From Ardenticatenaceae bacterium (GTDB taxonomy: Bacteria > Chloroflexota > Anaerolineae > Promineifilales > Promineifilaceae): a stretch of 16,007 nucleotides of DNA. Below, piece after piece: positions 1 to 15,851 of the stretch. Made by a program: the position numbers and the translations under genes. Each line of letters begins with the position of its first letter. Within the stretch, counting starts at the first letter, position 1. The notes below the pieces were generated by a model. The model saw only the letters and a list, made by a program, of their open reading frames with translations, was not told where the DNA came from and ran no database searches. Location: the NCBI GenBank assembly GCA_020634495.1, contig JACKBR010000077.1, forward strand, positions 1-16,007, in the 5' to 3' direction.

Positions 1-2663
1 ATACCGAGATTGAGCAAACTCAATGCAGTTGAAGGATGACGTTCTCCCAAACTTTGGCAACGAATATTGTATGCTCGTTTATGATAATCCAGAGCAACTG
101 CATAGTCACCATGTTGAGCGGCTGAATAGCCCAAGTTGTTGAGGGATATGGCAATGTAGGGGCTGTTTGCTGGCAATATATTTTCGCGAATGTTTAAAGA
201 TCGTATATTGGCGGCCTCGCTTTCTGCAAACAAATTCATATCTCTTAGTAAAAGCCCCATATTTTGTAAGGTCAACGCTATTTGCTGTTCATCTGGTGGG
301 GATAGTTGTTCATAAATTGCCAACGCTTGCTCATAATAAGACTTTGCGGTATCGCGAGAACCTGCACGCCGATGAAGAATAGCGAGATTATTAACCGCTT
401 GAGCGGTAAGTGTATGGTTTTCACCCAATGCCTGCCTGCGAATGGCTAATACCTCTTCATACATAGGCCACGCTTGCTCTAGCTGCCCTGTTTCCCACAT
501 TAATGTACCCAGAATAGCCAGCAAATCAGCCAGGATAAGATCCTTTTCAAGTAGCAAGTCACGGCGTGCAGCAACGGCCGTTTCCAAAATTTCTTTAGAC
601 GCCTCACTCGCTCCAATGTCCCGCAGGTGTCGCCCCCACCACAAAGGCAGCTGCGTTCCCCACTCATCCCCTCGCGCCAGCCCTTTGTGTACCAGCCATT
701 GCAGATGTGCCGGATTGATGGGCAGATTCCCCAAAAAGCGCGTCTGCGCAAATTGTGCTGCCAGCAATTTTATGACTTGCCGCTCAACGGCCGTTCGTCC
801 TTCCACTACGTATGGTTCAGACAATTCTGCCTCGGAATAGGTGGCAATTAAACGGTGCACCTGTACACTTTCTGACCCGACCTCGCGCATAATACCCAGC
901 ATGAGCAATCGAGTCAGGCCATCCATGGCTAATAACTCCAGCATTAAATCATCTGCTTCATCCAGTACACAGGCCAGAAGCAAATGCTTGGGAATCGCTT
1001 CATGATGAGCGAAGGCGATGGCACTGGCCAAAATACGTAACGCCATCCTATCTGCTTCATCATTGGCATTTAGCTGCTTGAAGTTGAGAGCAAAGGTGCG
1101 GGCGATATTCAGCTCATGTCCCGTGGGCGAATGTGTCACCCCCCGTCCCTGTAATGATGGATGCTGCAACAGCCCTATATCCCGCAGCTGATGCAAATAT
1201 TGAGCAGGCGTTATCTGTTGATAACGGCGCAAAAAGCCACCGGCTAAATAGAGGGCTAAGGGTAAATCCCCGCTTTCAGCTGCGATTTCATCTGCTGTTG
1301 ACACATCTATACCGGCGATTAGCTTTTGCAGCATCCGGATACTTTCTGAACGCGCTAAATGGTGCAATGGGAGAGGCATCACCCCTAGTTCAGGTGACCA
1401 TATACCTCGCTTCGAGGTGATCAAGATACGACACCCGCCCGTTACCGGTAACCATTGCGTGAGCAACGTTTCCTCTTCACAGGTGTCAAAAACAAGCAGA
1501 CGCGGAATGGGTTCTTGCCACGCTTTGAGCACGCGTGCCACTTTATCCTTTTGAGTGAGTCGCTCTGCATCTTGATAAAGCCCTAATCCGCGTTCACCTC
1601 CAATCAGCATCACCTCTTCAGCAACGTTCTTATCATCGGCAAAGCTCAGCCAAAAGACACCGCCGGGGAAGAAACGGCCGTAACGATAACAAAACTCCAC
1701 CGCCAACTGCGTCTTGCCCAGACCCCCTATCCCCGTAATGGCCACTGCTCGTTGACCCGCATCCCCCTCCGCGGGCAGCAATGCCTGCCCAATCTCCAGC
1801 AATATGTCTTGGCGACCTACAAAATCCTGGTTGCGCTGGTATGGCACATACGTATGGCTCGGTAGATTGCCTGGTTCAGGCAGTTCGTAGGGAGCAGGTG
1901 GCCTGGTAGGAAGTCCAACAACGGTGTTCCAAGCGACGCCCCCGCCGTGTGTTTCTTTAAACGTTTCAATCTGGGTGACCAACTGGCGCGTCTCGTCCAT
2001 TGGCTCCACGCCCAGCTCCTCCCAAAGCCGCTGTCGGCTGACCGCGTATTGTTGCAGAGAGACATCAATTTGTCCGCTGGCGGCCAACAGTTGCAGCAAA
2101 TAACGGAGCGCCTCTTCATCCAACTCATCCAATGCCAGCCAGCGTTGGGCTAAAGCAACCCCCTTCACCCAATCCTGTTGTTCCTGATAAACACCACACA
2201 GTTGGCGAAATGCGCCAACCACTCGCCGCCGCAGCTTCTCACGGGTAAGCAGCAGCCACTCATTAAAACGCGGCGCATCTTCAAGATAGAAGCCGTCCAG
2301 TAAATCTCCCTGATACAAAGGAAGGACAGAGGCAATTTCGCCGCTGTCCAGCCCGGTAAGCAGTTGGTTGTAATCGATGGAAACGGCCGTTTCCACCGGA
2401 AAGCGCACCTGCTTGCGCGTCACTTCTAACTCCGGTACCCATTTACGCAGGCGGGCCAGCAGGGCGCGTAAATTTTGCAATGATTGGGCGGTTGAGGTGG
2501 CATCCCAGAGCAAATCTGCCAGCATCTCTCTGGGCTGAGAAGCATTGGTGACAAGCAAATAGGCCAGCAGCGCACATCCTTTGTTCGACTTCATCACCTT
2601 TGAAATCTCACCCGCTTCATTTTCTATTTGCAAAATGCCCAACAATTTGATTCGCAACGTCAT
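1..2663 (-). CDS. SARP/BTAD transcriptional regulator with NB-ARC NTPase and TPR domains (3' end outside window)
   Basis: The minus-strand frame is open without a stop from ATG 2663 to the left edge (887 codons), so the protein is C-terminally incomplete here. Residues about 1-95 look like the winged-helix DNA-binding part and about 95-240 the bacterial transcriptional activation (BTAD) domain (LYQGDLLDGFY, ALRYLLQLLAASGQ, LWEELGVEP). Next comes an NB-ARC/STAND NTPase: FVGRQD at 281, Walker A GIGGLGKT at 311-318, Walker B-like LLVFD at 389-393, CRILITSKR at 411-419 and the GLPL-like GDLPLAL at 465-471. From about 715 there are TPR units (QAVNNLAILHRRAG, YYEQALAIYEQ, ISLNNLGYSAAQHGDYAVALDYHKRA). 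Family knowledge: such proteins bind DNA through the N-terminus, with the NTPase and TPRs probably sensing a signal. ATG 2663 is the only possible start, because an in-frame TAA lies four codons upstream. Divergent neighbours carry SARP-like operators, making them likely targets. The signal is unknown. Confidence 0.93.
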   Translation of the reverse strand, partial: MTLRIKLLGILQIENEAGEISKVMKSNKGCALLAYLLVTNASQPREMLADLLWDATSTAQSLQNLRALLARLRKWVPELEVTRKQVRFPVETAVSIDYNQLLTGLDSGEIASVLPLYQGDLLDGFYLEDAPRFNEWLLLTREKLRRRVVGAFRQLCGVYQEQQDWVKGVALAQRWLALDELDEEALRYLLQLLAASGQIDVSLQQYAVSRQRLWEELGVEPMDETRQLVTQIETFKETHGGGVAWNTVVGLPTRPPAPYELPEPGNLPSHTYVPYQRNQDFVGRQDILLEIGQALLPAEGDAGQRAVAITGIGGLGKTQLAVEFCYRYGRFFPGGVFWLSFADDKNVAEEVMLIGGERGLGLYQDAERLTQKDKVARVLKAWQEPIPRLLVFDTCEEETLLTQWLPVTGGCRILITSKRGIWSPELGVMPLPLHHLARSESIRMLQKLIAGIDVSTADEIAAESGDLPLALYLAGGFLRRYQQITPAQYLHQLRDIGLLQHPSLQGRGVTHSPTGHELNIARTFALNFKQLNANDEADRMALRILASAIAFAHHEAIPKHLLLACVLDEADDLMLELLAMDGLTRLLMLGIMREVGSESVQVHRLIATYSEAELSEPYVVEGRTAVERQVIKLLAAQFAQTRFLGNLPINPAHLQWLVHKGLARGDEWGTQLPLWWGRHLRDIGASEASKEILETAVAARRDLLLEKDLILADLLAILGTLMWETGQLEQAWPMYEEVLAIRRQALGENHTLTAQAVNNLAILHRRAGSRDTAKSYYEQALAIYEQLSPPDEQQIALTLQNMGLLLRDMNLFAESEAANIRSLNIRENILPANSPYIAISLNNLGYSAAQHGDYAVALDYHKRAYNIRCQSLGERHPSTALSLLNLG

Positions 2664-2671
2664 TAGTGCGA

Positions 2672-2677
2672 ATTATA
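2672..2677 (-). promoter_or_regulatory. -10 box of a probable leaderless promoter for the SARP-type regulator
   Basis: On the minus strand a perfect TATAAT is followed by exactly 8 bases and then the ATG at 2663. A transcript from this box would begin at or within a base or two of the start codon. No Shine-Dalgarno sequence lies at normal distance (the nearest, AGAGGAAA, is about 19 bases upstream). No good -35 box is seen, which would fit an activator-dependent or weak promoter. The position is an inference from spacing only. Confidence 0.5.
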
Positions 2678-2713
2678 ACAAATTTCCTCTTTCAGAATAC
2701 CTTTGCCTCCCTG

Positions 2714-2754
2714 CATATCACGTTCGCGTCACGATTGTTTTTATAAACTGCAAA
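2714..2754 (+). promoter_or_regulatory. SARP-type operator/promoter, copy 1 (upstream of the small protein gene)
   Basis: Two heptamers, TCACGTT (2718-2724) and TCACGAT (2729-2735), are separated by CGCG, giving an 11-bp period. Eight bases after the second heptamer comes TAAACT (2744-2749), a plausible -10 box. SARP regulators such as ActII-ORF4, DnrI and AfsR are known to bind heptameric direct repeats with 11-bp period placed 8 bp upstream of the -10, replacing a -35 box. The element matches copy 2 at 3058-3098 in 35 of 41 positions. It lies between the SARP-type gene and the first rightward gene, so it could also affect the regulator's own promoter. Confidence 0.65.
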
Positions 2755-2813
2755 ACAAGGATAGAGAAGGAAATTTTTAGCATCGCAGACATCATACGTA
2801 AACCAATAGGAAA

Positions 2814-3035
2814 ATGAAAAGCATGGGTATACAACAATACAAAGCCTTTTTACTCAGATTACAGCGCGATGAAGGCCAACCCCAGTGGCGGGCGACCATT
2901 GAAAATGCCCAAACCGGCGAACGGCTTCGCTTTGCCGACCAAAATCAAATGCTGCGCTACTTACTAAACGATTTGACGGACATATCACCGGCAGCCAATA
3001 AACCGACAAGTCAGGTAGACAGCGGCGAAAATTGA
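2814..3035 (+). CDS. Small conserved-looking protein of unknown function (73 aa)
   Basis: A short, mostly polar protein without signal peptide or membrane segment, hence probably cytoplasmic. Its core reads FLLRLQRDEGQPQWRATIENAQTGERLRF followed by an amphipathic segment MLRYLLNDL; I recall similar small proteins with a W-R-A...TGER...F-A core in Chloroflexota, but no function is known to me. A weak AGG lies at 2808-2810, only 3 bases from ATG 2814 and 12 from the alternative ATG 2823, so the start could be either (73 or 70 residues). The gene has its own SARP-like promoter element at 2714-2754, giving a 5' leader of roughly 60 bases. A second copy of the element follows it before the giant protein gene. 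It may be co-regulated with that protein; a role as chaperone, anti-activator or co-regulator would be pure speculation. Confidence 0.7.
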   Translation: MKSMGIQQYKAFLLRLQRDEGQPQWRATIENAQTGERLRFADQNQMLRYLLNDLTDISPAANKPTSQVDSGEN

Positions 3036-3057
3036 GAATGAAAAACAGGTTCATCCC

Positions 3058-3098
3058 CATATCACGATCGCGTCACGTTTGATTTTGTACACTGCCAA
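3058..3098 (+). promoter_or_regulatory. SARP-type operator/promoter, copy 2 (upstream of the giant repeat protein)
   Basis: Heptamers TCACGAT (3062-3068) and TCACGTT (3073-3079) are separated by CGCG, and TACACT (3088-3093) lies 8 bases downstream as -10 box. Of the six differences from copy 1 at 2714-2754, two exchange A and T at the sixth heptamer position, leaving the TCACGWT consensus intact. The predicted transcript starts near 3100, leaving a leader of about 90 bases before ATG 3194. Confidence 0.65.
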
Positions 3099-3193
3099 TC
3101 GATTGAATTTACTACAGAAAAAAGGCAAGAAAAATGATTGTACGAACACGCCATAATCCCAATCTTCAAGTTATCGCTACAAAGGAGACCATA

Positions 3194-6100
3194 ATGAGCA
3201 TGACTACCATGAAACGACTATTAATCATCTGTATACTTGGTCTGAGCCTGTTTGCTCTGGCTGGGCTGCACCCCGCCCGCGTTGGTGCGGCCCCATTGCG
3301 CCAGACAGGCTGCACCCTGCCCGCCACTGTCACCACTGCCGACCAGTTATACGACTGCATCACCGCGGCCAATGCCGGCAGCGGCGGGACCATCACCCTG
3401 GACGCGGACATCAACCTGACCGACCTGACCACCAGCCCGCTGCCGCAGATCACCAGCGAAATCACACTGGAAGGGGATGGCCACACCATCGATGGTGGTT
3501 GGAATGGCACGCCCGGCAGCGGTATGCAAATCTTCTCCGTGGCCGGCACCGGCGATTTCACCGTCAACCAGGCCACCCTGCAACACGGTGAAGCAACCAA
3601 CGGGGGTGCGATCTACAACGATGGCGGCACACTGACGGTCACCAACAGCACTATCTCCGACAACTCCGCAAGCGATAATGGTGGTGCCATATACACTGCC
3701 GGGTATTATGCCACACTACTGACAGTGAGTAATAGCACCTTCTCCGGCAACTCCGCAAGCAATTATGGTGGTGCCATATACAATGCCCGGTATGCCACAC
3801 TGACAGTGAGTAATAGCACCTTCTCCGGCAACTCCGCAAGCGATGCTGGTGGTGCCATATACAATGCCGAGACTTATGCCACACTGACAGTGAGTAATAG
3901 CACCTTCTCCGGCAACTCCGCAAGCAAATATGGTGGTGCCATATACAATGTTCCGGATAGCACACTGACAGTGAGTAATAGCACCTTCTCCGGCAACTCC
4001 GTAAACTATGCTGGCGGCGCCATCGAAAACCGCGGTACGCTGACAGTGAGCAACAGCACCTTCTCTGGCAACAATGCTAACGACGGCGGCGCCATCGAAA
4101 GCTTCTACGGCACGGCGACGATCACCAACAGCACCTTCTCCGGCAACAATGCTGACTTCTTCGGCGGCGCCATCTACAGTTTCGGCAGGGTGACATATCT
4201 GGCGGGAAATATTTTTGTGGCTGGCGCAAGGGGCGACAACTGCAACGGCAGTCTCCGTGATAACGGCTACAATCTGTCGGATGACACAAGCTGCATCAAC
4301 GGCGGCCCTGGCTCCGTGACCAATGCCACCTTGAATCTCGGGCCGCTCGCCGATAATGGCGGCCCCACACAAACACGCCTGCCCGGCGCAGGCAGCGACG
4401 CCATCGGCGCCATCCCCGCCTGGCATGCTATCAATAATAATGGCACAGCCCTGGCTTGTAACGGTAGCACCACGGATCAAACGGGCAATAGCCGCCCCCT
4501 TACTGCGGGAACTGCCTGCACGAGCGGCGCAGTGGAAGTGGCTCCAATATTCACCAGCCTGACCATTATCAAGGATGCCAATCCAGCTATCGGCACCGAT
4601 TTTGATTTCACCATCAACTCAGAACCGCTGACATCCTACAGTGGCAGCACCAGCGGCAACCCGTTCTGGACGCGACCGAATGAAGGCGGAACCTGTACGC
4701 TCTCTACCAACTCCGTGCGCTACCATGTGCAAGCCTTTATGGTGGATACCAGCGGAGTTTACAATTTGCTCAGCGTGCAAGGCTACAACGGCTATATCCA
4801 TCTCTATCAAGATGGCTTTAATCCGCTCGATCAATGCACAAATTACGTCAATGGTAACGATGATGGTCTTACCAACAACACCTCTCTACTCGACCAAATC
4901 CTGGAAGCCGGTCGGGTCTACTATCTGGTCACCAGCGGTTTTGCCGCAGCTAACGCAGGCAGCTTTACCAACTCTATCACCGGTGTAGGCACGGTGTATA
5001 CATTGGCCTCTTCATTTACGCTCGACGATGCTGTCCCCGATGATGGCGATGATATTAGCGCCAGCACCACATTTGTGGTCGACCCCCGCACCTTCAGCAT
5101 CACCGAACTCCTGCCCAACAACGCCTGGAACCTGACCGGCGCAACCTGTACCGGGGCCAGCGGCAGTGTCAGCCTGACCGATGAAACCCTGTCGGTCGAG
5201 GTCGGCACTGGCGAGACGGTTGCCTGCACGTTTACCAACGAATCGCTCTGCCCGGCAGACTGGACGGTCTCAACCGCCAATGAACTGTCCGCCTGTATCA
5301 CCCTGGCGAATACCAACGAGAGCCCCAGCCCCACCGCCGATACGATCACGCTGGGTGCAGATATCGCCCTGACGACGCTGACCACCAGCCCCTTGCCGCA
5401 GATCACCTCTGAGATCACAGTTGAAGGCGCGGGCTATGCCATCGATGGCGGCAGCAGTATGCGCATCTTCTCTGTGGCTACGACCGGCGATTTCACCGTC
5501 AACCAGGCCACCCTGCGCAACGGTGCGTCGGCAGGCGATGGCAACAATGGCGGCGGTGCCATCTTCAACGCGGGCAGCACGGCAGTCACCGCCGTCACCT
5601 TCTCTACCAACACCGCCCCCGGGCTTGATGGCGGGGGAGCAGTCTGGAACGATCACTATGGCGCGACCTTCTCCGCTACGGACAGCACCTTCTCCGGCAA
5701 CTCCGCCGGTTTCGCTGGAGCGGTCCTGAATGGATTTTCCAGCACGATGATGTTGAAGAACAGTACCTTCACCGGCAACTCCGCCGGTCAGGCTGGCGCT
5801 GTCGTGAACTGGGATGGTGCTACGATGACCCTGACGAACAGCACTTTCTCTGGCAACTCAGCGACCGAATACGGTGGTGCCCTGGCGAACTTCGGCTCAC
5901 CATTCACCACCATCCTGAGCGCCACCAACAACACATTCGTCGACAACACGGCCGATGACAGCACGATTTACAACTCCGGGACCCTGCATCTGGCGGGCAA
6001 TCTCCTGGCGGCCGGGACGAGCGGGGACAACTGTTTCGGGGAGGCCGGCAGCACGCTCAGCGACAACGGTTACAACCTGTCGGATGACGCTTCGTGCGGT

Positions 6101-7888
6101 TTCAGTGGCACATCGGCAGATAACGCCACCCTGAACCTGGGCGCGCTGGCGGACAATGGTGGCCCCACACTGACGCATCTACCCGGTGCGGGCAGTGACG
6201 CCATCGGCGTCATCCCCAACGGCACCACCATCAGCAACAACAGTACCACCTGGACCTGCGATGATGCGGATCCCTTCACCGATCAACGGGGGGTGTCACG
6301 CCCGATCACGCTGGCGACTGCCTGTACAGCCGGCGCGGTCGAAGTGGCACTGCCCCCACTTTGCCCCTCCTGGACAGCAAGCACCGCCGATGAGCTGTAC
6401 GACTGCCTCACCCTGGCGAATGCGAACGAAAGCCCCAGTCCCACCGCGGATACCATCACGCTGGGCGCGGACATCAACCTGACCGACCTGACCACCAGCC
6501 CCCTACCGCAGATTGGGTCTGAGATCACGGTCGAGGGCGCGGGCTACGCCATCGATGGCGGCGGCAGCGTGCGCCTCTTCAATGTGCAATCCGGCGGCAA
6601 TTTCACAATCAGCCAGGCCACGTTGCAAAACGGCTCGGCGACCAACGGCGGCGGCATTGCGAACAATGGAGGTACGCTGGTGGTGGCCAACAGCAGCATC
6701 ATCAGTAACTCGGCCACTTATGGCGGCGGCATCGGAAACTATAGCGCCGGCACGGCGACCGTGATCAACAGCACCCTCTCCGGCAATTCGGCGATTATCG
6801 GCGGCGGTGGTATTGAGAACAAGGGTACGCTGACGGTGGTCAACAGCACCTTTTCCGGCAACCTGGCGCCCAGCGGCGGTGGCATTGATAACTATACCGT
6901 GTTGACGATGACCAACAGCACCTTCTCCGGCAACTCGGCAATCGGCCTCATCAACAGCTTCGGCACGGTGCACCTGGCGGGGAATATTTTTGCCGCCGGC
7001 GCAAGTGGCGACAACTGTGTCAACGACGGCACGCTCTATGATAACGGCTACAATCTGTCGGATGATACCACTTGCACCGACGACGGTACTGGCTCAGTGA
7101 GCAACGCCACCCTGAACTTGGGGCCGCTGGCGGACAACGGCGGTCCCACACAAACGCATCTGCCCGGTGCGGGCAGCGACGCCATCGGTGCGATCCCCAA
7201 CGGCACCACCATCAGCAACAACGGCACCATTTGGACCTGTGACCAGTCGACCACCGACCAGCGCGGCGTGGCACGCCCGATCAACAGTGGCGATGCCTGT
7301 ACGGCCGGTGCGGTGGAAGTAGCGCCGTTCCAAAACGCAGCACCGGTAGCTGTGGACGACAGCGCGACGACCGATGAGGATACGGCCGTAACAATCGATG
7401 TCCTGGCCAATGACTCAGACAGTGATGGCGACAGCCTGACCGTAGAGAGCGTAACCGACCCAACCAATGGTACCGTTGTTAACAATGGTACGGATGTGAC
7501 CTACACGCCGAACGCCAACTTCAACGGTGTTGACAGCTTCAGCTACACCGTCAGCGACGGCAACGGCGGCAGCGACACGGCCACGGTGACGATCACGGTC
7601 AACGGGGTGAACGATGCGCCAGTGGCCAATGATGACAGCGCGACAACTGATGAAGATACGGCCGTAACAATCGATGTCCTGGCCAATGACTCAGACAGTG
7701 ATGGCGACAGCCTGACCGTAGAGAGCGTAACTCACCCAACCAATGGTACGGCCGTCAACAACGCTACGGATGTGACTTACACGCCGGACGCAGGCTTTGC
7801 AACGGCGCGACGGCTTCAGCTACACCGTCAGCGATGGCAACGGCGGCAGCGACACGGCCACGGTGACGATCACGGGTCAACGCGGTGA
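3194..7888 (+). CDS. Secreted beta-helix / choice-of-anchor Q / VCBS-like repeat protein, N-terminal 1,564 residues
   Basis: The start is set at ATG 3194 because AAAGGAG (3181-3187) lies 6 bases upstream and a signal peptide begins there (MKRLLIICILGLSLFALAG, probable cleavage near residue 33, VGA-A); a further in-frame ATG at 3134 lacks these. Module A (about 40-450) has seven Pmp-type units (NSTFSGNSA, GGAIYN) ending in a choice-of-anchor Q pattern (NLGPLADNGGPTQT...GSDAIG...TDQ...RP...GAVEV). Residues about 453-685 form a prealbumin-like domain interrupted by another domain at about 475-604. Modules B (685-1053) and C (1053-1375) repeat the A pattern with five and four Pmp units. From about 1380 come VCBS/cadherin-like repeats (DDSATTDEDTAVTIDVLANDSDSD). 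The last 28 or so residues after DAGFA are out of frame. Family knowledge points to an extracellular adhesin or surface protein. No catalytic motif was seen. Confidence 0.85.
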   Translation: MSMTTMKRLLIICILGLSLFALAGLHPARVGAAPLRQTGCTLPATVTTADQLYDCITAANAGSGGTITLDADINLTDLTTSPLPQITSEITLEGDGHTIDGGWNGTPGSGMQIFSVAGTGDFTVNQATLQHGEATNGGAIYNDGGTLTVTNSTISDNSASDNGGAIYTAGYYATLLTVSNSTFSGNSASNYGGAIYNARYATLTVSNSTFSGNSASDAGGAIYNAETYATLTVSNSTFSGNSASKYGGAIYNVPDSTLTVSNSTFSGNSVNYAGGAIENRGTLTVSNSTFSGNNANDGGAIESFYGTATITNSTFSGNNADFFGGAIYSFGRVTYLAGNIFVAGARGDNCNGSLRDNGYNLSDDTSCINGGPGSVTNATLNLGPLADNGGPTQTRLPGAGSDAIGAIPAWHAINNNGTALACNGSTTDQTGNSRPLTAGTACTSGAVEVAPIFTSLTIIKDANPAIGTDFDFTINSEPLTSYSGSTSGNPFWTRPNEGGTCTLSTNSVRYHVQAFMVDTSGVYNLLSVQGYNGYIHLYQDGFNPLDQCTNYVNGNDDGLTNNTSLLDQILEAGRVYYLVTSGFAAANAGSFTNSITGVGTVYTLASSFTLDDAVPDDGDDISASTTFVVDPRTFSITELLPNNAWNLTGATCTGASGSVSLTDETLSVEVGTGETVACTFTNESLCPADWTVSTANELSACITLANTNESPSPTADTITLGADIALTTLTTSPLPQITSEITVEGAGYAIDGGSSMRIFSVATTGDFTVNQATLRNGASAGDGNNGGGAIFNAGSTAVTAVTFSTNTAPGLDGGGAVWNDHYGATFSATDSTFSGNSAGFAGAVLNGFSSTMMLKNSTFTGNSAGQAGAVVNWDGATMTLTNSTFSGNSATEYGGALANFGSPFTTILSATNNTFVDNTADDSTIYNSGTLHLAGNLLAAGTSGDNCFGEAGSTLSDNGYNLSDDASCGFSGTSADNATLNLGALADNGGPTLTHLPGAGSDAIGVIPNGTTISNNSTTWTCDDADPFTDQRGVSRPITLATACTAGAVEVALPPLCPSWTASTADELYDCLTLANANESPSPTADTITLGADINLTDLTTSPLPQIGSEITVEGAGYAIDGGGSVRLFNVQSGGNFTISQATLQNGSATNGGGIANNGGTLVVANSSIISNSATYGGGIGNYSAGTATVINSTLSGNSAIIGGGGIENKGTLTVVNSTFSGNLAPSGGGIDNYTVLTMTNSTFSGNSAIGLINSFGTVHLAGNIFAAGASGDNCVNDGTLYDNGYNLSDDTTCTDDGTGSVSNATLNLGPLADNGGPTQTHLPGAGSDAIGAIPNGTTISNNGTIWTCDQSTTDQRGVARPINSGDACTAGAVEVAPFQNAAPVAVDDSATTDEDTAVTIDVLANDSDSDGDSLTVESVTDPTNGTVVNNGTDVTYTPNANFNGVDSFSYTVSDGNGGSDTATVTITVNGVNDAPVANDDSATTDEDTAVTIDVLANDSDSDGDSLTVESVTHPTNGTAVNNATDVTYTPDAGFATARRLQLHRQRWQRRQRHGHGDDHGSTR
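3722..4090 (+). repeat. Tandem 75-84 bp repeats encoding Pmp-type beta-helix rungs
   Basis: The string ACAGTGAGTAATAGCACC or a near copy starts at 3722, 3803, 3887, 3968 and 4043, i.e. spacings of 81, 84, 81 and 75 bases. Each unit encodes 25-28 residues with the pattern TLTVSNSTFSGNSAS-GGAIYN. The DNA identity between units is much higher than protein function requires, so the units were duplicated or homogenised recently. Lengths are all multiples of three, so the frame is kept. Confidence 0.85.
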
Positions 7889-8690
7889 ACGATGCGCCAG
7901 TGGCCAATGATGACAGCGCGACAACTGATGAAGATACGGCCGTAACAATCGATGTCCTGGCCAATGGCTCAGACAGTGATGGCGACAGCCTGACCGTAGA
8001 GAGCGTAACTGACCCAACCAATGGTACGGCTGTCATCAACGGTAGGATGTTACCGCCGGACGCAGGCTTTGCAGGTGACAGTTTCAGCTACACGGTCAGA
8101 CGGCAACGGTGGTAGCGACACGGCCACGGTGACGATCACGGTTAACGGGTGAACGATGCGCCAGTGGGATGATGACAGCGCCACAACTGATGAAGATACG
8201 GCCGTGACAATCGATGTCGCCAATGACTCGACAGTAGGCGACAGCTGACGTAGAGAGCGGACTCAACCAATGGTACGGCCGTCAGCAACGGCTCGGATGT
8301 GACCTACACGCCGGATGCCAACTTCAGCAGCAGTGACACTTAGCCACACCGTCAGCGACGGCAACGGCGGCAGCGATACGGCAACCGTGACGATTACGGT
8401 TAACGCGGTGAACGACGCGCCGTGGCCAATGACGACAGCGCCACGACGGATGAGGATACGGCCGTTACCATTTACGTCCTTTCCAATGACAGCGATGTGG
8501 ACGGCGACACCCTCACCATTGACAGCGTTAGCGCACCGGCCAACGGCACGGTTGTCAACAACGGCACGGACGTCACCTACACGCCCGACACTGGATTCTT
8601 GGGCAGCGATAGCTTTACCTACACCGTCTCTGATAACAATGGCGGCACAGCCACAGCGACAGTGACTGTTACCGTCAATGAGGTCTCTAA
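7337..8690 (+). repeat. About five VCBS/cadherin-like repeats with clustered frameshifts
   Basis: Each unit of about 285 bases encodes a ~95-residue domain: DDSATTDEDTAVTIDVLANDSDSDGDSLTVESV...NGTDVTYTP...FSYTVSDGNGGSDTATVTITVN. Unit 1 (7337-7621) and the start of unit 2 are intact. Unit 2 has an altered stretch at about 7800-7814 and an extra G near 7875. Unit 3 loses 6 bases near 8046-8055 and 2 near 8098. Around 8149 and 8168 one and two bases are missing. Unit 4 lacks bases at several points between 8218 and 8265 and is altered near 8338-8345, creating a TAG. One base is missing near 8421. Unit 5 (8422 onward) is again in frame. Positions are by eye against the neighbouring units. Confidence 0.8.
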
Positions 8691-8853
8691 CTTCGTTATC
8701 ATCAAACTGCTAGACAGCAACGGTAATGGTTTAGCTGGCGGCACGGTCCAATACTACAGCGGTGGCTGGCAGGATGTCTCCGGCAGCACTGATGCTAACG
8801 GTGAACTCCTGACAATTATCCCCACTGACATGGGCAGCCTACCTTCCGCATGA
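8422..8853 (+). CDS. Fragment of the giant repeat protein: last VCBS-like repeat and first 74-residue-type unit
   Basis: This open frame is not a gene of its own: it has no ribosome binding site and begins inside a repeat. It encodes a complete VCBS/cadherin-like unit (NDDSATTDEDTAVTIYVLSN...) and then a diverged copy of the tail module (LLDSNGNGLAGGTVQYYSGGWQ). The frame is lost near 8836, where AGCCTACCTTCCGC stands in place of the expected AGC-TAC-ACC/T-TTC-CGC found in the later copies; a single missing base explains this. It then ends in a TGA that overlaps the start of the next open frame. Confidence 0.65.
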   Translation: MANDDSATTDEDTAVTIYVLSNDSDVDGDTLTIDSVSAPANGTVVNNGTDVTYTPDTGFLGSDSFTYTVSDNNGGTATATVTVTVNEVSNFVIIKLLDSNGNGLAGGTVQYYSGGWQDVSGSTDANGELLTIIPTDMGSLPSA

Positions 8854-9737
8854 ACTACGGCGGCACCTCAGTGAACCTCACTCAAGACGTTAACGATGAT
8901 CCGTTTGTTGTGTTCCAGACCGCCAACGTCACCGTCCAACTGCAAGACAGCGAGGACAACCCGCTGGATACCGGCTCAGTGCAGTACTATGCTGGCGGCT
9001 GGCAGACCTTTGGCGACACGTCTGGCGGCCAAGTCAGCCTGGAACTGCTGCCCAAGAGCTACACTTTCCGTATGAACTACGGTGGCACCTCAGTGAACCT
9101 CACTCAAGACGTTAGCAATGATCCGTTTGTTGTGTTCCAGACCGCCAACGTCACCGTCCAACTGCAAGACAGCGAGGGCAACCCGCTGGATACCGGCTCA
9201 GTGCAGTACTATGCTGGCGGCTGGCAGACCTTTGGCGACACGTCTGGCGGCCAAGTCAGCCTGGAACTGCTGCCCAAGAGCTACACTTTCCGCATGAACT
9301 ACGGCGGCACCTCAGTGAACCTCACTCAAGACGTTAACGATGATCCGTTTGTTGTGTTCCAGACCGCCAACGTCACCGTCCAACTGCAAGACAGCGAGGG
9401 CAACCCGCTGGATACCGGCTCAGTGCAGTACTATGCTGGCGGCTGGCAGACCTTTGGCGACACGTCTGGCGGCCAAGTCAGCCTGGAACTGCTGCCCAAG
9501 AGCTACACTTTCCGCATGAACTACGGCGGCACCTCAGTGAACCTCACTCAAGACGTTAACGATGATCCGTTTGTTGTGTTCCAGACCGCCAACGTCACCG
9601 TCCAACTGCAAGACAGCGAGGGCAACCCGCTGGATACCGGCTCAGTGCAGTACTATGCTGGCGGCTGGCAGACCTTTGGCGACACGTCTGGCGGCCAAGT
9701 CAGCCTGGAACTGCTGCCCAAGAGCTACACTTTCCGC
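8850..9737 (+). repeat. Four tandem copies of a 222-bp (74-codon) repeat
   Basis: Copies begin at 8850, 9072, 9294 and 9516, exactly 222 bases apart, and a partial copy starts at 9738. By eye, copies 3 and 4 appear identical; copies 1 and 2 differ from them at only a few bases (for example GAGGACAAC for GAGGGCAAC, and GTTAGCAAT for GTTAACGAT). Such identity indicates very recent expansion or gene conversion. Copy number may vary between strains or be mis-assembled. Confidence 0.92.
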
Positions 9738-9980
9738 ATGAACTACGGCGGCACCTCAGTGAACACCACCCAGAACGTAAGCGATGATCCAATGGTTGTC
9801 TTTCAGACGGGCCAGGTCAACTCAGTGAGCAGCACTGCTACCCAATATTACGCTGGTGGTTGGCAAACTTTTGTTAATGGTATGGAGCTATTGCCCAAGA
9901 CCTATACCTTCCAATTTGACGATGGCTTCCCGAATACGAATTACACCATTGTAGCTGGGACAAACAACGAGATCCATTAG
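8850..9980 (+). CDS. C-terminal part of the giant repeat protein: tandem 74-residue modules
   Basis: This 376-residue frame continues the protein after the last frameshift; ATG 8850 is an internal methionine of the repeat (FRMNYGG) and has no ribosome binding site. Each 74-residue unit reads [72 protein letters not shown]. The alternation of hydrophobic strands and the ELLP-Y-F-M-Y core suggest a small beta-sandwich of prealbumin or carboxypeptidase-regulatory type; this is inference, as I cannot name the family. The final unit is shortened and diverged ([26 protein letters not shown]). The protein ends NNEIH with no LPXTG motif, PEP-CTERM or membrane helix, so how it is held at the surface, if at all, is not visible. 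A terminator follows at 10014. Confidence 0.75.
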   Translation: [376 protein letters not shown]

Positions 9981-10013
9981 AATTGCTGCGTTAAACGGGT
10001 AATTAGTGGATAG

Positions 10014-10054
10014 AAAGACACCGGTTATTTTCATAATGGCCGGTGTCTTTTTTT
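10014..10054 (+). terminator. Intrinsic terminator after the giant repeat protein
   Basis: An 11-bp perfect stem, AAAGACACCGG (10014-10024) with CCGGTGTCTTT (10040-10050), closes a 15-base loop and is followed by a T run to 10054. It lies 34 bases after the stop codon at 9978-9980, as expected for a rho-independent terminator of that gene. Confidence 0.9.
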
Positions 10055-10490
10055 GCACCAAGGTGGTCTATAGTCTGATGACGTGATCAAAAGCCGCAAC
10101 GGGACGGATACGGCCGTTACCTGTGCAAGAGAGGTTGATATTCCCTAAAATCCGTGAGGTTTAGGCTGGAGATTCTCCTGCCAACTTCAAACAACAGCCG
10201 TTTTTCCTGTGACTATTGTGGGGGAAACGGCCGTTTGTTTTTCAGTTACCCACATTATTCAGACCTGTGAATCATCCCGCGTGGAGTGGCGCTTGCTACG
10301 AGCGCAGGAATCACTGGCCATCACCAAGGCGAATTATAAAAGATGCCATGACTCTGCCAAAACTTTTTCTGCACTGAAGGCTTCTTGAAACCGAACCCTT
10401 TCTTTACCGATGGGTAATAAGGTCACTTGAGTTGACGCGTGTTATTCTCAGTAAAGAATCCTGGTAAAGAAAATTAAGTTTGAAAACTGG
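10055..10490. other. Gene-free stretch between terminator and tRNA remnant
   Basis: No convincing coding frame is seen on either strand here. The stretch holds two ACGGCCGT palindromes (10110-10117; 10227-10234, the latter within the 12-bp palindrome AAACGGCCGTTT) and a small hairpin GCGCT-N7-AGCGC at 10289-10305. Nothing else is recognised. Confidence 0.6.
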
Positions 10491-10536
10491 CTTACGAGTT
10501 CGTTTGGTCGTCGGTTCAAATCCGGCAGCCCCGACA
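10491..10536 (+). pseudogene. 3' part of a tRNA-like sequence (T arm and acceptor 3' strand only)
   Basis: GTCGG (10510-10514), TTCAAAT (10515-10521) and CCGGC (10522-10526) form a T stem and T loop with the invariant TTC bases; AGCCCCG plus A (10527-10534) would be the acceptor 3' strand and discriminator base, then CA. The matching 5' strand CGGGGCU and a D arm are absent upstream, and the stretch before 10491 cannot pair as an anticodon stem. The sequence therefore looks like a tRNA 3' fragment, as left behind when an element integrates into or is excised from a tRNA gene. The minus-strand translation contains GAAGFEPTTK, a well-known spurious peptide from tRNA genes. The amino-acid identity cannot be assigned. 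Confidence 0.6.
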
Positions 10537-10543
10537 GATGTGG

Positions 10544-10579
10544 AAAACGGCCGTTTCCTTGCGAGGAACGGCCGTTTTT
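10544..10579 (-). terminator. Terminator hairpin built from two ACGGCCGT palindromes
   Basis: AAAACGGCCGTTTCC (10544-10558) pairs with GGAACGGCCGTTTTT (10565-10579) around the 6-base loop TTGCGA, with one bulged T. On the minus strand it starts 3 bases after the stop codon of the alpha/beta-hydrolase gene and ends in TTTT, so it should terminate that gene. The arms also end in T on the plus strand, so it may work in both directions. Confidence 0.75.
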
Positions 10580-10581
10580 GA

Positions 10582-11397
10582 TCAACCCCCAACTTTTCCC
10601 AAAAAAGAGTCCACATGCTGCATCGTTTCTGCATAGGCATCGCGGTGAATGCAGTGGCCTGCGTTGGCTATCTGAACAACCTCACAATTGGCCATGAGGG
10701 AAGCTGCTTCGACGGCCGTTTCAGGCGTCACAATGCCTTTGCCTGGATCGGCCGTGAGCAGCAATGTGGGGCATCTTACTTTGGCGGCCGCCGCTTTCCA
10801 GGCGTAGTTGTGCATGGTCAGCCGGATTTCCGGGGACATAATTTCGGGATCATATTCACCTTTCGACTCAGCCCAAGGGATCACCTCATCCTCTGCCCAG
10901 CCAGGATTGCTGGCGCGGCAATCGGCAATGCGCTGAGCCAGAGGGCGTTGCTGGAACGCCCGTCCTCCCACCGCCTGCTGGGCAAGATCGTCCACGTTTA
11001 TCGCTTTTTGCCGCGCCGCTGGCCAAAACGGCGGGTCTTCCAAAATGAGCGCTCGAATCAAATTTGGGGCGCGGGTCGCGGCAATCATTGCCGTTAATGC
11101 CCCCATGGAATGCCCAAACAAAATGGGCTGTGCCAGACCCAGCGTCTGAATCAGGCCAACCGCATCCTCGCCCAGCAAATCGTAGGAAAGGGCGGACACA
11201 TCACCGGCGGTACGGCCGTGTCCGCGGGCGTCTGGCATAATGAGATCGTACCCACCTGCCAGGTCTTGGGCGACCCGATCCCAGCAACGGCCGTTGTCGG
11301 TAAAGCCATGCAGCAGCACAATGGGAAGTTTACTCCCCTGGCCGCTCCGACGATGATAAAAAACCTGCAATCCGTTCCTCAATAAACAGCGTTCCAT
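10582..11397 (-). CDS. Alpha/beta-hydrolase fold protein (271 aa)
   Basis: Full-length member of the alpha/beta-hydrolase superfamily. The oxyanion-hole region LLHGFTDNGRCW is at 28-39, the conserved PDARGHGRT at 55-63, the nucleophile elbow GHSMG at 95-99 (Ser97), the likely acid Asp217 in LLLTADPGKG, and the catalytic His248 in NAGHCIHRD. The cap region is about 125-195. There is no signal peptide, so the enzyme is probably cytoplasmic. The substrate (ester, lactone, epoxide or C-C bond) cannot be read from the sequence. ATG 11397 is chosen because AAAGGAG lies 4 bases upstream on the minus strand (11402-11409) and the protein starts where family members do. The gene is transcribed alone, divergently from the glycoside phosphorylase, and ends at the hairpin 10544-10579. 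Confidence 0.92.
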   Translation of the reverse strand: MERCLLRNGLQVFYHRRSGQGSKLPIVLLHGFTDNGRCWDRVAQDLAGGYDLIMPDARGHGRTAGDVSALSYDLLGEDAVGLIQTLGLAQPILFGHSMGALTAMIAATRAPNLIRALILEDPPFWPAARQKAINVDDLAQQAVGGRAFQQRPLAQRIADCRASNPGWAEDEVIPWAESKGEYDPEIMSPEIRLTMHNYAWKAAAAKVRCPTLLLTADPGKGIVTPETAVEAASLMANCEVVQIANAGHCIHRDAYAETMQHVDSFLGKVGG

Positions 11398-11562
11398 ACC
11401 ACTCCTTTTGTTTTTGCAAACTTATTCCAGACTTGCCGGTGGCCCTACACAGGTTTTCAGCAATCAAGACAAACGAACAAACGGCGGTTATCTGCGTGAA
11501 TCCGAGTCCTATTTCATAAAAAAGGCGAGCAACCAAAAACCCTGGGCGGCTCTAAAAAATTC

Positions 11563-11590
11563 TTGACAAATCTAAAAAACAGTTGATAAT
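11563..11590 (+). promoter_or_regulatory. Sigma-70-type promoter of the GH94 / sugar-binding protein operon
   Basis: A perfect -35 TTGACA (11563-11568), a 16-base spacer and a near-perfect -10 GATAAT (11585-11590) predict a start near 11597, about 135 bases before ATG 11733. The -35 is flanked by two TCTAAAAAA strings 20 bp apart (11551 and 11571). The palindrome at 11663-11680 lies in the leader, where a bound repressor could block elongation. Confidence 0.75.
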
Positions 11591-11662
11591 TTCCCTTATC
11601 GAGGCGCTCTTGGGGGAGCAAAATTGTTTTAAAAATTATCTGTAGAATATTTTTTTGTCAAA

Positions 11663-11680
11663 AAGTGAAACGTTTCACTT
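11663..11680. promoter_or_regulatory. Perfect 18-bp palindromic operator, LacI-family type
   Basis: AAGTGAAACGTTTCACTT is its own reverse complement and contains the core TGAAACGTTTCA with central CG, the usual form of LacI-family sugar repressor operators. It lies between the promoter at 11563-11590 and the ATG at 11733. No LacI-family gene is in the window, so the regulator must be encoded elsewhere. Confidence 0.75.
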
Positions 11681-11732
11681 CCGCAACCCAGAAGCGAAAC
11701 CTTGCGCAAAAATGGGACATTTTAGAGGGGAC

Positions 11733-14114
11733 ATGCACAGAAAATTTGAAAATAACTACGGTTATTTTTCTGAGGATGGCAAAGAATATATCATCAAAAC
11801 GCCATTGACCCCCCGCCCCTGGGGCAACATCATCAGCAATGGCGATTACAGCTTGATGATCTCCCAAACCGGGTCTGGCTACAGCTGGCGCGGCAACGCC
11901 GGGCAAAACAGAATCACCCGCTCTTTCCAGGATTTGGTGAAGGATAACTGGGGGAAATATTTTTACATCCGTGACCTGAAGCGAAACACTTACTGGTCAG
12001 CCACGTACAAGCCGGTGATGCGGCCGTTTCAAGCTTTCTCCGTCGTGCATGGCATTGGCTACTCCAAATTTCAGCAAAAAATAGAAGATATTCACAGTGA
12101 ACTGACCGTGTTTGTTGCCGCGCATGATCCGGTTGAGATTTTCCAGCTCACGCTAAGCAACCACAGCCAGGAAAGCCGCGCACTGGACGTTACCTCCTAT
12201 GCCGAATGGCTGCTGGGCTTTGCCCCGGATGAGCACCGCGAGTTCCACAAATTGTTTATCGAGACAAAAGCTGATGAGGCCAACAGCACTTTGCTTGCCC
12301 GTAAATGTCTGTGGGGCTTTCCCGACGACAAAGGGCGTCACAACAACACGGATTGGCCCTACACGGCGTTCATGGCCGTCAGCGAACCGCTGAAATCGTT
12401 TGATTGTGACAAAGCGTCGTTTATTGGCCTGTACAACAATGACGACAGGCCGCAGGCGATGCGCGACGAAAAGTTGGCGTGTAAAAACGGCCGTTTCACG
12501 GACGCTATTGCCGCATTACAAGTTGCCGTCAACCTGGAGCCGGGCGAGGCCAAAACGATTGTGTTTACCCTGGGCGCAGCGGAAGATGGCCAAGAGGATG
12601 TGGCGGAATTGGTGAAACGGTATACGGCCGTACCCCAAAGCCACCAGGCCCTGCAAGACGTACACCAATTTTGGTCACGCTTCATCGACACCGAAAAAGT
12701 AGAAACCCCGGACGAAGCGTTCAACTTCATGACCAACACCTGGCTGAAATACCAGTCCATCTCCTGCCGCCTGTGGGGAAAATCTGCCTTTTATCAGGTG
12801 TCGGCAGGGTACGGCTACCGGGATCAGCTGCAAGACAGCCAGATTTTTTTGGTGAGCGAGCCTGAATTCACCAGAAAACAACTTTTGCTGCACGCTGCTC
12901 AACAATTTATTGAAGGAGATGTGCTGCACTGGTGGTTTACCATTCGCGGCGGCGGCCCCCGCACCAACTGCTCCGACGATCTCCTGTGGCTGCCATTTAT
13001 TCTCGATGCCTACCTGCAAGAAACAAACGATTTCGCCATTCTGGATGAACAGATTCCTTACCTGAACGGGCCTGCGGAATCCCTCTACGAGCACTGTAAA
13101 CGCGCTATCGAACGTTCCTTTTCCCGCTTTTCGCCCAGAGGCATTCCGCTCATGGGGGATCATGATTGGAACGATGGTCTTAGCGCCGTTGGCACGCTGC
13201 TGAAGGGTGAAAGCTTCTGGGTAGCCGAGTTCCTCTACATGATTTTGGGCAGCTTTGGCCCGGTGGCCAACATGCGGGGGGATGCACCCTTTGCCCAAAA
13301 ATGCGACACCGTCCGCCAAAGCCTAAAAACCGCCATGAACTGCCACGGCTGGGATGGCCAATGGTATTTGCAGGCCACCACCGACGACGGCCTGCTGCTT
13401 GGTTCCCACGCAAACGACGAAGGCAAAATCTTCTTGATGCCCAACAACTGGGCCATCATCAGCGGCATTGCCGATGAAAAGCGGGCGAAGGTGGCTATGG
13501 ACTCTGTCACCAAATTCCTGCTTAAAGATTATGGCACGCTGCTCAATTATCCCGCCTTTACCAAACCCCGGCCGGATGTGGGCTACGTGACGCGCTACGC
13601 GCCGGGCCTGCGTGAAAATGGCGGCGTTTACACCCATGCGGCAACCTGGTCGGTATGGGCCTACACGCTGGTTGGCCAACCGGCGCTGGCTTATGAGGCA
13701 TATCGCCGCATTTGCCCCCCAAACCGCAGCGGCGACATTGAAACGTACCTGGCGGAGCCTTACGTGACCCCAGGCAATATTGATGGCCCACTTTCTGAAT
13801 ATTACGGCCGTGGCGGTTGGACATGGTACACCGGCTCATCCCAATGGCTGCACCGCGTGGCCACACACTGGATTTTAGGGATAAGGCCTCAAGCAGATGG
13901 CCTGCTGATCGACCCGTCAATTCCGGCAGATTGGCCTGGCTACAAAGTAACTCGCAAATTTCGCAACGCGCAATACCAGATCGCAGTAAAAAACCCTGAC
14001 GGTGTTAGCCAAGGGGTACGTTCTGTAATCGTTGATGGTGACCCGATTGAGGGTCAGTTAATTCCAGCTTTTAATGACGGGCAGGCACATCTTGTCGAAG
14101 TCATTATGGGATAA
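11733..14114 (+). CDS. GH94 family glycoside phosphorylase (cellobiose/oligosaccharide phosphorylase-like)
   Basis: The frame is open from TTG 11655, but that extension would translate the operator palindrome. ATG 11733, preceded by AGAGGGG (11724-11730, a rather close spacing), gives MHRKFENNYGYFSEDGKEYII, matching the usual short N-terminus of the family, and a 793-residue protein, close to the ~800 of cellobiose and chitobiose phosphorylases. Family marks, numbered from ATG 11733: N-terminal beta-sandwich (RPWGNIISN, KYFYIRD, VVHGIGYSKF), then the (alpha/alpha)6 barrel with YQVSAGYGYRDQLQDSQ near 354, RGGGPRTNCSDDLLWLP near 405, and the catalytic acid motif GDHDWNDG (475-482). The C-terminus (HLVEVIMG) is typical. 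The family splits a beta-linked disaccharide with phosphate into sugar 1-phosphate plus sugar in the cytoplasm, saving ATP. Substrate specificity is not readable. It lies upstream of a sugar-binding lipoprotein that probably supplies the same sugar. Confidence 0.93.
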   Translation: MHRKFENNYGYFSEDGKEYIIKTPLTPRPWGNIISNGDYSLMISQTGSGYSWRGNAGQNRITRSFQDLVKDNWGKYFYIRDLKRNTYWSATYKPVMRPFQAFSVVHGIGYSKFQQKIEDIHSELTVFVAAHDPVEIFQLTLSNHSQESRALDVTSYAEWLLGFAPDEHREFHKLFIETKADEANSTLLARKCLWGFPDDKGRHNNTDWPYTAFMAVSEPLKSFDCDKASFIGLYNNDDRPQAMRDEKLACKNGRFTDAIAALQVAVNLEPGEAKTIVFTLGAAEDGQEDVAELVKRYTAVPQSHQALQDVHQFWSRFIDTEKVETPDEAFNFMTNTWLKYQSISCRLWGKSAFYQVSAGYGYRDQLQDSQIFLVSEPEFTRKQLLLHAAQQFIEGDVLHWWFTIRGGGPRTNCSDDLLWLPFILDAYLQETNDFAILDEQIPYLNGPAESLYEHCKRAIERSFSRFSPRGIPLMGDHDWNDGLSAVGTLLKGESFWVAEFLYMILGSFGPVANMRGDAPFAQKCDTVRQSLKTAMNCHGWDGQWYLQATTDDGLLLGSHANDEGKIFLMPNNWAIISGIADEKRAKVAMDSVTKFLLKDYGTLLNYPAFTKPRPDVGYVTRYAPGLRENGGVYTHAATWSVWAYTLVGQPALAYEAYRRICPPNRSGDIETYLAEPYVTPGNIDGPLSEYYGRGGWTWYTGSSQWLHRVATHWILGIRPQADGLLIDPSIPADWPGYKVTRKFRNAQYQIAVKNPDGVSQGVRSVIVDGDPIEGQLIPAFNDGQAHLVEVIMG

Positions 14115-14128
14115 ATAGGAGGTAACTA

Positions 14129-14197
14129 TTGATTATCAGCCAAGAAAAACGTGTTTTCCACATTATTTTGAATAAAAACGAGGAGATTAAGATATGA
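14129..14197 (+). CDS. Possible 22-residue leader peptide, coupled to the sugar-binding protein
   Basis: A very strong Shine-Dalgarno AGGAGG (14117-14122) starts only 3 bases after the GH94 stop and is followed, 6 bases on, by a TTG codon (14129). The frame [22 protein letters not shown] ends with TGA at 14195-14197, overlapping the ATG of the next gene as ATGA. That overlap is the classic layout for translational coupling. No ATG start is available and the peptide resembles nothing I know, so the strong ribosome site could instead be chance or a standby site. Confidence 0.25.
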
Positions 14198-15729
14198 AAA
14201 CCCACTTAAGATTGTTTTATGTATTGCTTACGGCCGCATTAGTGCTCATGCTCATTGGCTGTGGCTCTGGCTCCACGGAAACAGACACAACGGACCAAAC
14301 CACAACCGAAGATACCTCTACAGATGAGGCGGTAACTGAGGAAACCACAGCGGAAGAACCAGCCGCTACGGAAGAGGAAACCGTCGCTGAAGAACCGGCC
14401 ACAACAGAAGAAGAAACCGTTGCTGAAGAACCAGCCACCACAGAAGAAACAGAGGAAATGGCTGAGGGTGAACCAATCACGCTGCGTTACGCCAACTGGA
14501 ACCTGGGCACCGAAGAAGAGAATAACATTCAGCGCCAGATGGTTCAGGCATACATGGAAGCCCATCCCAATGTAACGATTGAGTTTGTGGACATGTCCGC
14601 CGAAGGAGGCTGGGACGCCGTTTTGACCTCCTACGCTGCCAAGGGTGAGCTGCCTGATGTGTTTATGGCAAACAATGTGCCGCTGTATGTAGCCAACGAC
14701 TGGCTGGCTGATCTAACTGACCTGACGGCCGCTGATGCCGATTGGGCAAACGTTCCCCAGGTTCTTCAAGAGAGTGTGACTTACTCTGGTCAGGTTTTGG
14801 GGCTGCCAGCTGCCCAATTTGTGATGGGATACTTTGTTAACAAAGACCTGTACGAAGCTGCCAACCTGGATGCACCCGAATACGGTTTTTCTGTGGAAGA
14901 GTTCAACGATGCAGTCACTGCTTTGGGCAATATTCCGCAGGGCGTGCTTGGTTTAGATGAAATGGAATTTGTGATGGGTTGGTACGCCAACACCCAGAAC
15001 CCAGATTTGAAATGGTTTAGCTATGACGGCAGCCAGATGAATTACAACTCGCCTGAGTTCAAAACGGCCGTTGCCACTGCGGGTGAGATGAAACAATATA
15101 CCTGGCAAGGCTTGTCTGAAGAGCAGTTGGCCAACTTCAACTCCACCGGGCCCTGGGAACTTTTCTTGAATCAAGAAGTTGGGATGCGCTGGGATGCTTC
15201 TTGGGCCGTGCCCGGCTATGTGGAAAATGCCACATTTGAATGGGACTTCATCGGCATTCCCGGTGGCAACCAGGCCCTGGTAACGGATGTGATGGTTGTG
15301 TCTAAAACCACCGCAGACCTGGCAGCTGCTTACGATTTTGCTCGCTGGATGACCTTCTCCACAGAAGCGTATGCCAAAGAAGCTGAATTGGCTGGGGCAA
15401 TGGGGTCCGCGCCCAAAATGCCCGTGTCGGTTGATGAGGCTTCGTTGGAACTGTACACGACGTTTGTGGACAAACCGGGCATCCTTGCTGCGCTAGACAA
15501 TCTGGACAACAGTCTGGTTGAATCGTTGGCCAAGGTTTTGCCGGGCTACATTAATGCTCGTTGGGAAGGTAAACCGGGCATTGACATCGGTGAAGACCTG
15601 GATGTGAATATGTGGTTTATGTTCAACTTTGCCAACGACGGCCGTTACAAGTACGAAGATTACTCGGCCCAACTCGAAGAGTTTGCTAACCAAATTCTGG
15701 CCGACGCCGCTGCAGAATTAAACCAATAA
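14194..15729 (+). CDS. ABC transporter sugar-binding lipoprotein (SBP family 1)
   Basis: Extracellular solute-binding protein of a carbohydrate ABC importer, 511 residues. It has a lipoprotein signal peptide with lipobox LIGC (Cys23). An acidic Glu/Thr/Ala linker covers about 24-93, including three 12-residue repeats. The binding-protein fold starts at [16 protein letters not shown]. Typical family features are [54 protein letters not shown] and [18 protein letters not shown]. Many Trp and Tyr residues in the mature part suit sugar stacking. GAGGAG (14180-14185) lies 8 bases before ATG 14194. It is 79 bases downstream of GH94 and probably shares its promoter and LacI-type operator. No permease or ATPase genes follow, and a stem-loop lies just after the stop, so the transporter's other parts must be encoded elsewhere. 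The sugar is unknown; a beta-linked disaccharide is likely from context. Confidence 0.93.
14353..14460 (+). repeat. Three 36-bp repeats encoding an acidic 12-residue linker motif
   Basis: GAAGAACC starts at 14353, 14389 and 14425. The units encode [24 protein letters not shown] and [13 protein letters not shown] (the last one residue longer). They form a flexible, highly negative stalk between the lipid anchor and the binding domain. Confidence 0.85.
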
Positions 15730-15744
15730 CCCATAATGTGTAGG

Positions 15745-15776
15745 ATTGGAAGAGGTTGATCACAGCCTCTTCCAAT
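15745..15776 (+). terminator. Stem-loop after the sugar-binding protein gene
   Basis: ATTGGAAGAGG (15745-15755) pairs perfectly with CCTCTTCCAAT (15766-15776) around a 10-base loop, 15 bases after the stop codon. There is no T run behind it (TCCCATCACC follows), so it may be a rho-assisted terminator or an mRNA-stabilising hairpin that raises binding-protein levels. Confidence 0.55.
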
Positions 15777-15837
15777 TCCCATCACCCTTGTCAATCAATC
15801 AACCGGGCAAAGCTACACACCTGACTTGCCATTTGGG

Positions 15838-15843: not shown

Positions 15844-15851
15844 TGGCCGTT

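Follow-up and report, generated by a model that had tools for sequence, protein, structure and literature searches.

Between the gene of a SARP-type regulator and two genes on the opposite strand, a contig of an Ardenticatenaceae bacterium carries the pattern TCACGWT-N4-TCACGWT twice (2718-2735 and 3062-3079), which raises the question of whether these two elements are operators of the regulator encoded beside them. The window, as we call the whole stretch of DNA analysed, comprises 16,007 nt (contig JACKBR010000077.1, positions 1-16,007, forward strand). Its relevant features, with their basis in brackets, are the following:

3-2663, minus strand: SARP-type regulator with N-terminal DNA-binding and BTA domains, NB-ARC and TPR; 887 codons, running off the window (Pfam)
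2718-2735, plus strand: putative operator 1, TCACGTT-N4-TCACGAT, 11-bp direct repeat (pattern, shuffles, same layout in related loci)
2744-2749, plus strand: -10-like hexamer TAAACT, 8 bp 3' of operator 1 (sequence; fixed spacing in relatives)
2814-3035, plus strand: conserved small protein, 73 codons from the ATG at 2814, with a likely start at the ATG at 2823 (homologues, alignment, model)
3062-3079, plus strand: putative operator 2, TCACGATCGCGTCACGTT, 11-bp direct repeat (pattern, shuffles)
3088-3093, plus strand: -10-like hexamer TACACT, 8 bp 3' of operator 2 (sequence)
3134-7888, plus strand: long surface-type ORF, first gene behind operator 2, with a likely start at the ATG at 3194 (Pfam, NCBIfam, likeness to locus L215)

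The two elements and the genes around them

The two elements belong to 41-bp copies (2714-2754 and 3058-3098) that are identical at 35 of 41 positions, and no obvious similarity was found to continue beyond either copy. In the first, TCACGTT (2718-2724) and TCACGAT (2729-2735) are followed after 8 bp by TAAACT; in the second, TCACGAT (3062-3068) and TCACGTT (3073-3079) are followed after 8 bp by TACACT. The original prediction, that two such elements place their heptamers 8 bp before a TA(A/C)ACT box beside a divergent SARP/BTAD gene, is thereby borne out for both copies. SARP sites are described as 11-bp direct repeats of which the 3' one lies 8 bp from the -10 element (PMC10936776), and the afs box is given as CGTT(T/C)ATCGNN twice (PMC10972967). 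Direct repeats with the 11-bp (or 22-bp) period of SARP operators occur in the window and its relatives, and the 8-bp distance is found in both window copies, the -10 element being read from sequence. Transcripts would accordingly be expected to start near 2756 (operator 1) and 3100 (operator 2).

Chance seldom produces such a pair. Allowing up to two mismatches, the window contains only these two matches where 0.23 are expected, and 6 of 200 shuffles held two or more; the exact pattern was absent from all 1,000 dinucleotide shuffles of the window. A looser architecture (an 11-bp repeat with at least 7/9 identity, CG in both copies and TAnnnT at 9 or 10 nt from the CG, hereafter CG+9 or CG+10) also matches twice in the window, against a mean of 0.13 and a maximum of 1 in 200 shuffles.

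Pfam recognizes BTAD (2.3e-12, residues 114-232, above cut-off), NB-ARC (5.4e-6) and TPR in the regulator, and the BTA domain lies behind a DNA-binding domain, as is characteristic of the SARP family; an OmpR-type winged helix is likewise expected at the N-terminus of a SARP, and Pfam Trans_reg_C gave no match in this protein. A profile of residues 1-237 matches AfsR (8hvr) with an E-value of 8.3e-5 (single-domain i-E 0.014), in an alignment that spans the larger part of the DNA-binding and BTA domains and covers the helix-turn-helix from profile position 29. The model (mean pLDDT 87.8) has an N-terminal part with strands and three helices, the third formed by residues 58-75. In the fold search the matches listed were NB-ARC and TPR proteins, AfsR not being among them, and residues 1-240 were scarcely covered. 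The DNA-contacting residues W74, Q81, R87, R92, R94 and K95 of AfsR are kept as W53, Q60, R66, R71, R73 and K74, with P79, T88 and S91 replaced by T58, A67 and A70. In AfsR, R92 recognizes the T that is essential in each repeat (PMC10936776), and its equivalent here, R71, is invariant in 11 relatives, conserved at 90% or more in 35 and variable in distant ones.

Two NCBIfam models scored below their cut-offs with the incomplete window protein: the AfsR equivalog NF053617 (68 bits against 1430) and the FxSxx-COOH system TPR protein NF040586 (216.6 bits against 300), the latter matching the NB-ARC/TPR part alone (residues 276-881). The FxSxx-COOH system to which this partial match points is peptide-linked, and the small protein of the window might be a partner of a similar kind. 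PADLOC returned a single weak TPR match for the regulator. On the minus strand a TATAAT (2677-2672) lies 8 nt ahead of the regulator's ATG (window 2663-2677), and because of this short distance the regulator may have a nearly leaderless transcript.

Residues 1-250 of the regulator have 2374 homologues among 7996 candidates scored (best 88% identical), with Ardenticatenaceae, Anaerolineales and Chloroflexota named as sources among the best. A search of named genomes with the profile of residues 1-237 gave 186 relatives, 80 of them retained (best 51% identical), and the closest matches in sets of 396 and 56 Chloroflexota-side genomes are 42-53% identical. Single genomes have 13 to 32 BTAD-like matches (16 genomes, with some genes split into two matches). 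Viral contigs yielded no relative.

The 73-aa ORF behind operator 1 has 16 homologues in the protein database, whose alignment points to the ATG at 2823 as the likely start. Four of these 16 lie on contigs that match contigs of regulator homologues in length. No Pfam family scored above cut-off for the 17 family members scanned, and neither NCBIfam nor PADLOC matched the small protein; its model has a confident beta-beta-beta-alpha core, for which the fold search found no solved relative (best E 1.3). The ORF behind operator 2 matches Pfam Big_9, Cadherin and Chlam_PMP and the NCBIfam choice-of-anchor Q and tandem-95 repeat models, and its likelier start is the ATG at 3194, as this is preceded by an AAAGGAG stretch (read by eye). 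Past its end at 7888, repeat-type coding goes on in other frames of the plus strand (window 7885-9980, in the stretches 7885-8115, 8315-8665, 8422-8853 and 8850-9980), which may reflect frameshifts, decay or sequence errors. Further along the plus strand (11655-15729) lie genes for a glycoside hydrolase family 94 enzyme and then a solute-binding protein, apparently ordinary and unrelated to the switch.

Period, spacing and direction of repeats in related loci

To place the two elements among their relatives, direct repeats with at least 8/9 identity were sought over 350 nt in front of each of 35 BTAD genes, mostly from Chloroflexota, drawn from the 80 kept relatives. A period of 11 occurred in 21 of these 35 genes, and every other period from 9 to 33 in 0-5. 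A second set comprised 60 BTAD genes from six genomes, selected by an intact N-terminus and upstream sequence, irrespective of repeats (seven of them also belong to the first set, and the duplicates L083, L085 and L088 were dropped before counting); period 11 was present in 29/60, other periods from 6 to 33 in 1-10. The same holds for 30 further, held-out loci from ten other genomes (29 usable after one duplicate was dropped), with period 11 in 14/29 and other periods in 2-7. The excess is weak in the remaining 45 of the 80 loci, which are mainly from Proteobacteria (8/45, other periods from 9 to 23 reaching up to 7). Clear two- or three-unit 11-bp repeats do stand upstream of BTAD genes of Proteobacteria and Gemmatimonadales at L041, L072, L073 and L078, where they are not statistically separated from chance.

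Among 108 non-redundant upstream regions (after seven duplicates and L084 were dropped), a repeat whose two copies both contain CG is present in 53; in 7 the repeat lacks this feature, and 48 have no repeat. Spacing was counted on repeats with CG in both copies, leaving aside these 7 and three more in the held-out set. In the direction leading away from the regulator, 32/52 repeats have TAnnnT at exactly CG+9, counted from the second CG (one of the 53 rows being too short to score at CG+9), against 0-5 at each of the other 34 offsets. More than one CG pair was available in 12/53 repeats, and once these were re-anchored by repeat identity alone the count at CG+9 rose to 39/52, with other offsets again at 0-5. 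Reading towards the regulator, it is 1/53, and no offset exceeds 2. Eight of 11 held-out operators likewise have the hexamer at CG+9, with at most 2 at any other offset. Across 37 loci the full architecture matches 21 times in the 16.0 kb upstream of regulators and 11 times in the 383 kb elsewhere, some of these 11 being second operators with the same core.

The window sites stand at CG+10, one more than the usual 9, an offset shared by only one of the 52 re-anchored operators, that of L082, which reads TGATACGTTTGATTTTATACAATGCC at the place where window copy 2 has GTCACGTTTGATTTTGTACACTGCC. If one counts instead from the repeat's T, the window spacing would equal that of TGATCG-type sites. 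The layout was traced in loci of relatives at most 53% identical, the TCACG core being known from the window alone, and in L082, L091, L095 and L098 (about 44-52% regulator identity) the layout is kept while the letters differ.

Repeats upstream of related regulators were also considered as autoregulatory sites; this was rejected, as the fixed hexamer points away from the regulator. Separately, L086, L089, L090, L142 and L172 have AACGC repeats without TAnnnT at CG+9, which perhaps face the regulator and form a second operator type. The ORFs beside the BTAD genes of these five loci are, judged by eye, presumably TadE pilus protein-like.

A recurrent module with private operators

Among the fetched loci, 23 contain sequence related to the 73-aa ORF (two pairs of these loci coincide), in every case on the other strand from a nearby regulator. 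In 11 neighbourhoods, nine taken around regulators and two around small genes, the small gene is divergent and adjacent in 8 and the operator present in 9; a few weaker matches at other places in the fetched DNA could be due to chance. Among 12 loci picked by the small protein, the operator lies upstream in 8, mostly in modules already counted. With a profile of the small family, a member is detected no more than 700 nt behind the operator in 16 of 40 oriented cases; behind the rest lie other genes or a contig end, or a small gene that the profile missed.

The second part of the arrangement recurs as well, as a long ORF with a hydrophobic start follows the operator in 8/9 modules (7 of these ORFs run off the fetched stretch). 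At L215 the long ORF that comes first behind the operator shares 51-53% identity with the window surface protein (464 and 586 alignment columns), so that regulator, operator, small gene and surface gene are arranged there as in the window, except that there is one operator and not two. As in the window, operators with one shared core precede successive genes at L003, L006 and L221, two or three per locus. In L003 (7289-7642) and L006 (7258-7578) the operator is followed first by a gene for a protein of another kind, of about 106-117 aa and presumably GYD-like; in L006 secreted-type ORFs with their own operators come next.

Three regulator-specific operator patterns were scanned, at up to three mismatches, in three whole genomes (G401, G002 and G001). 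All four exact copies (two in G401 and one in each of the others) lie only at their own module. Of the other four among the 8 matches, all with 2-3 mismatches, the one on G002:C34 is the operator of a paralogue, and two stand directly before another small gene, beside a BTAD regulator (G401:C16) or about 3.4 kb from the nearest listed BTAD gene (G401:C50); the last (G401:C9) has neither hexamer nor small gene. Reversed control patterns gave 5 matches against these 8, and for the first pattern 4 against 3. A further pattern, CGTT-N7-CGTTTG-N5-TANNNTG, was tried as a general finder in 56 genomes and abandoned: with 16 matches against 8 for the reversed control it is a poor one.

The period, the spacing in one direction, the synteny and, in three genomes, operators private to their module together support the interpretation of the elements as SARP-type operators outside Actinobacteria. 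Two adjustments apply: SARP-NB-ARC-TPR proteins have no single binding motif, each regulator subfamily having its own core around a CG, and the window spacing departs by one from the usual CG+9.

How the letters around the CG might be read is a lead for further work. In 34 oriented operators the residue at the place of AfsR T88 goes with the base before the CG (Ser with T 7/7, Thr with G 7/9, Val with A 6/7, Gln with A 7/7 and four single cases with A), in a table built on the first CG pair of each repeat, which is ambiguous in 12/53 rows. The pairing of residue 67 with this base is among the three highest, and residues 58 and 71 score as high with other bases. Helix and operator distances correlate (Mantel 0.27, 0/2000 permutations), falling to 0.14 when the BTA domain is controlled for (p 0.024); since the BTA domain alone correlates with the operator at 0.38, common descent explains much of this. 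Held-out operators agree (Ser with T 3/3, Val with A 1/1), but L241 and L238 are close to loci of the earlier sets, and L233 is likewise close to L247. No clear operator was seen for another five held-out Ser, Thr or Val regulators (L227, L228, L229, L234, L253). Because other residue-base pairs score as high and descent accounts for much, a reading of the base before the CG by the T88-equivalent residue is suggested as a lead only.

Probable operators of the adjacent regulator and their use in Chloroflexota

Very probably, the two elements are operators through which the adjacent SARP regulator switches on the genes of the small protein and the surface protein. Two N-terminal DNA-binding/BTA units would sit side by side on the 11-bp repeats, roughly at the place of the -35 element, and bring RNA polymerase to the -10 hexamer that follows after 8 bp, operator 1 turning on the divergent small-protein gene and operator 2 the surface-protein gene, while the NB-ARC/TPR part would gate the regulator by some signal. 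We infer direct binding, activation rather than repression, gating and the transcript starts. The window would then be one instance of a Chloroflexota module in which a SARP regulator has a private operator facing a divergent gene, often for a protein of about 70 aa together with a giant secreted-type protein.

OmpR, PhoB and KdpE are response regulators with a receiver domain and no BTA domain. A protein of this type encoded elsewhere could occupy the repeats with a similar winged helix on tandem half-sites, and as KdpE sites consist of two 6-bp direct repeats 5 bp apart (PMC3264566), the same 11-bp period, the period alone does not single out SARPs. No such regulator is encoded beside the operators in the window. 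This reading is improbable: in the BTAD genes surveyed, the repeats with this period lie in front of the gene and are oriented towards its divergent neighbour, each regulator has a core of its own whose exact copies stay at their own module, and tandem operators within a locus share one core. That the adjacent regulator binds the repeats to block the promoter is more doubtful still: the sites overlap the place of the -35 element and a SARP review names Atr32 with a negative role, but the same review has characterised SARPs usually activating (PMC10972967), and the spacing is that of SARP activator sites and nearly constant in relatives, which argues against repression since recruitment would require such spacing. 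Hardly credible, finally, is the view that an ordinary piece of promoter was recently duplicated and has nothing to do with the regulator; it would account for the 35/41 identity and the sharp edges of the copies but not for the four relatives with the same layout in different letters, nor for the fixed spacing in 39/52 operators. Duplication may still be the origin of copy 2.

The architecture itself is of a known kind. AfsR of Streptomyces coelicolor has a SARP domain followed by nucleotide-binding and TPR domains, and its afs box has two 11-bp direct repeats of which the 3' one lies 8 bp from the -10 element (PMC10936776); the contact residues listed above are common to both proteins. The window regulator differs in belonging to another phylum, in its targets (a small and a surface protein), in its three replaced residues and its operator core, and in that Chloroflexota genomes carry several paralogues with their own operators. 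The small Streptomyces SARPs ActII-ORF4 and DnrI lack NB-ARC and TPR domains and regulate antibiotic clusters. Their operators, like those described here, are heptameric direct repeats overlapping the -35 region (PMC10972967). The open-licence PMC literature searched yielded no account of SARP operators in Chloroflexota, of private operators or of the gene module.

The operator layout thus recurs in Chloroflexota beside genes unlike antibiotic genes, which suggests that a type of switch known from antibiotic producers has been put to another use. For a large group of NB-ARC/TPR regulators that are still uncharacterised, it allows operators, promoters and targets to be predicted. The most direct of these targets would be the small-protein family, for which no Pfam model scored above cut-off. 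The layout also offers many naturally diverged regulator-operator pairs from which to learn how SARPs read DNA. Chances seem about even that Chloroflexota possess many mutually insulated SARP switches, in which regulator and private operator co-diverged under a natural code around the CG, read partly by the T88-equivalent residue, and many of which control their own small and giant secreted protein. If so, these bacteria would have a sensor-gated repertoire of surface-protein expression, and not antibiotic regulation.
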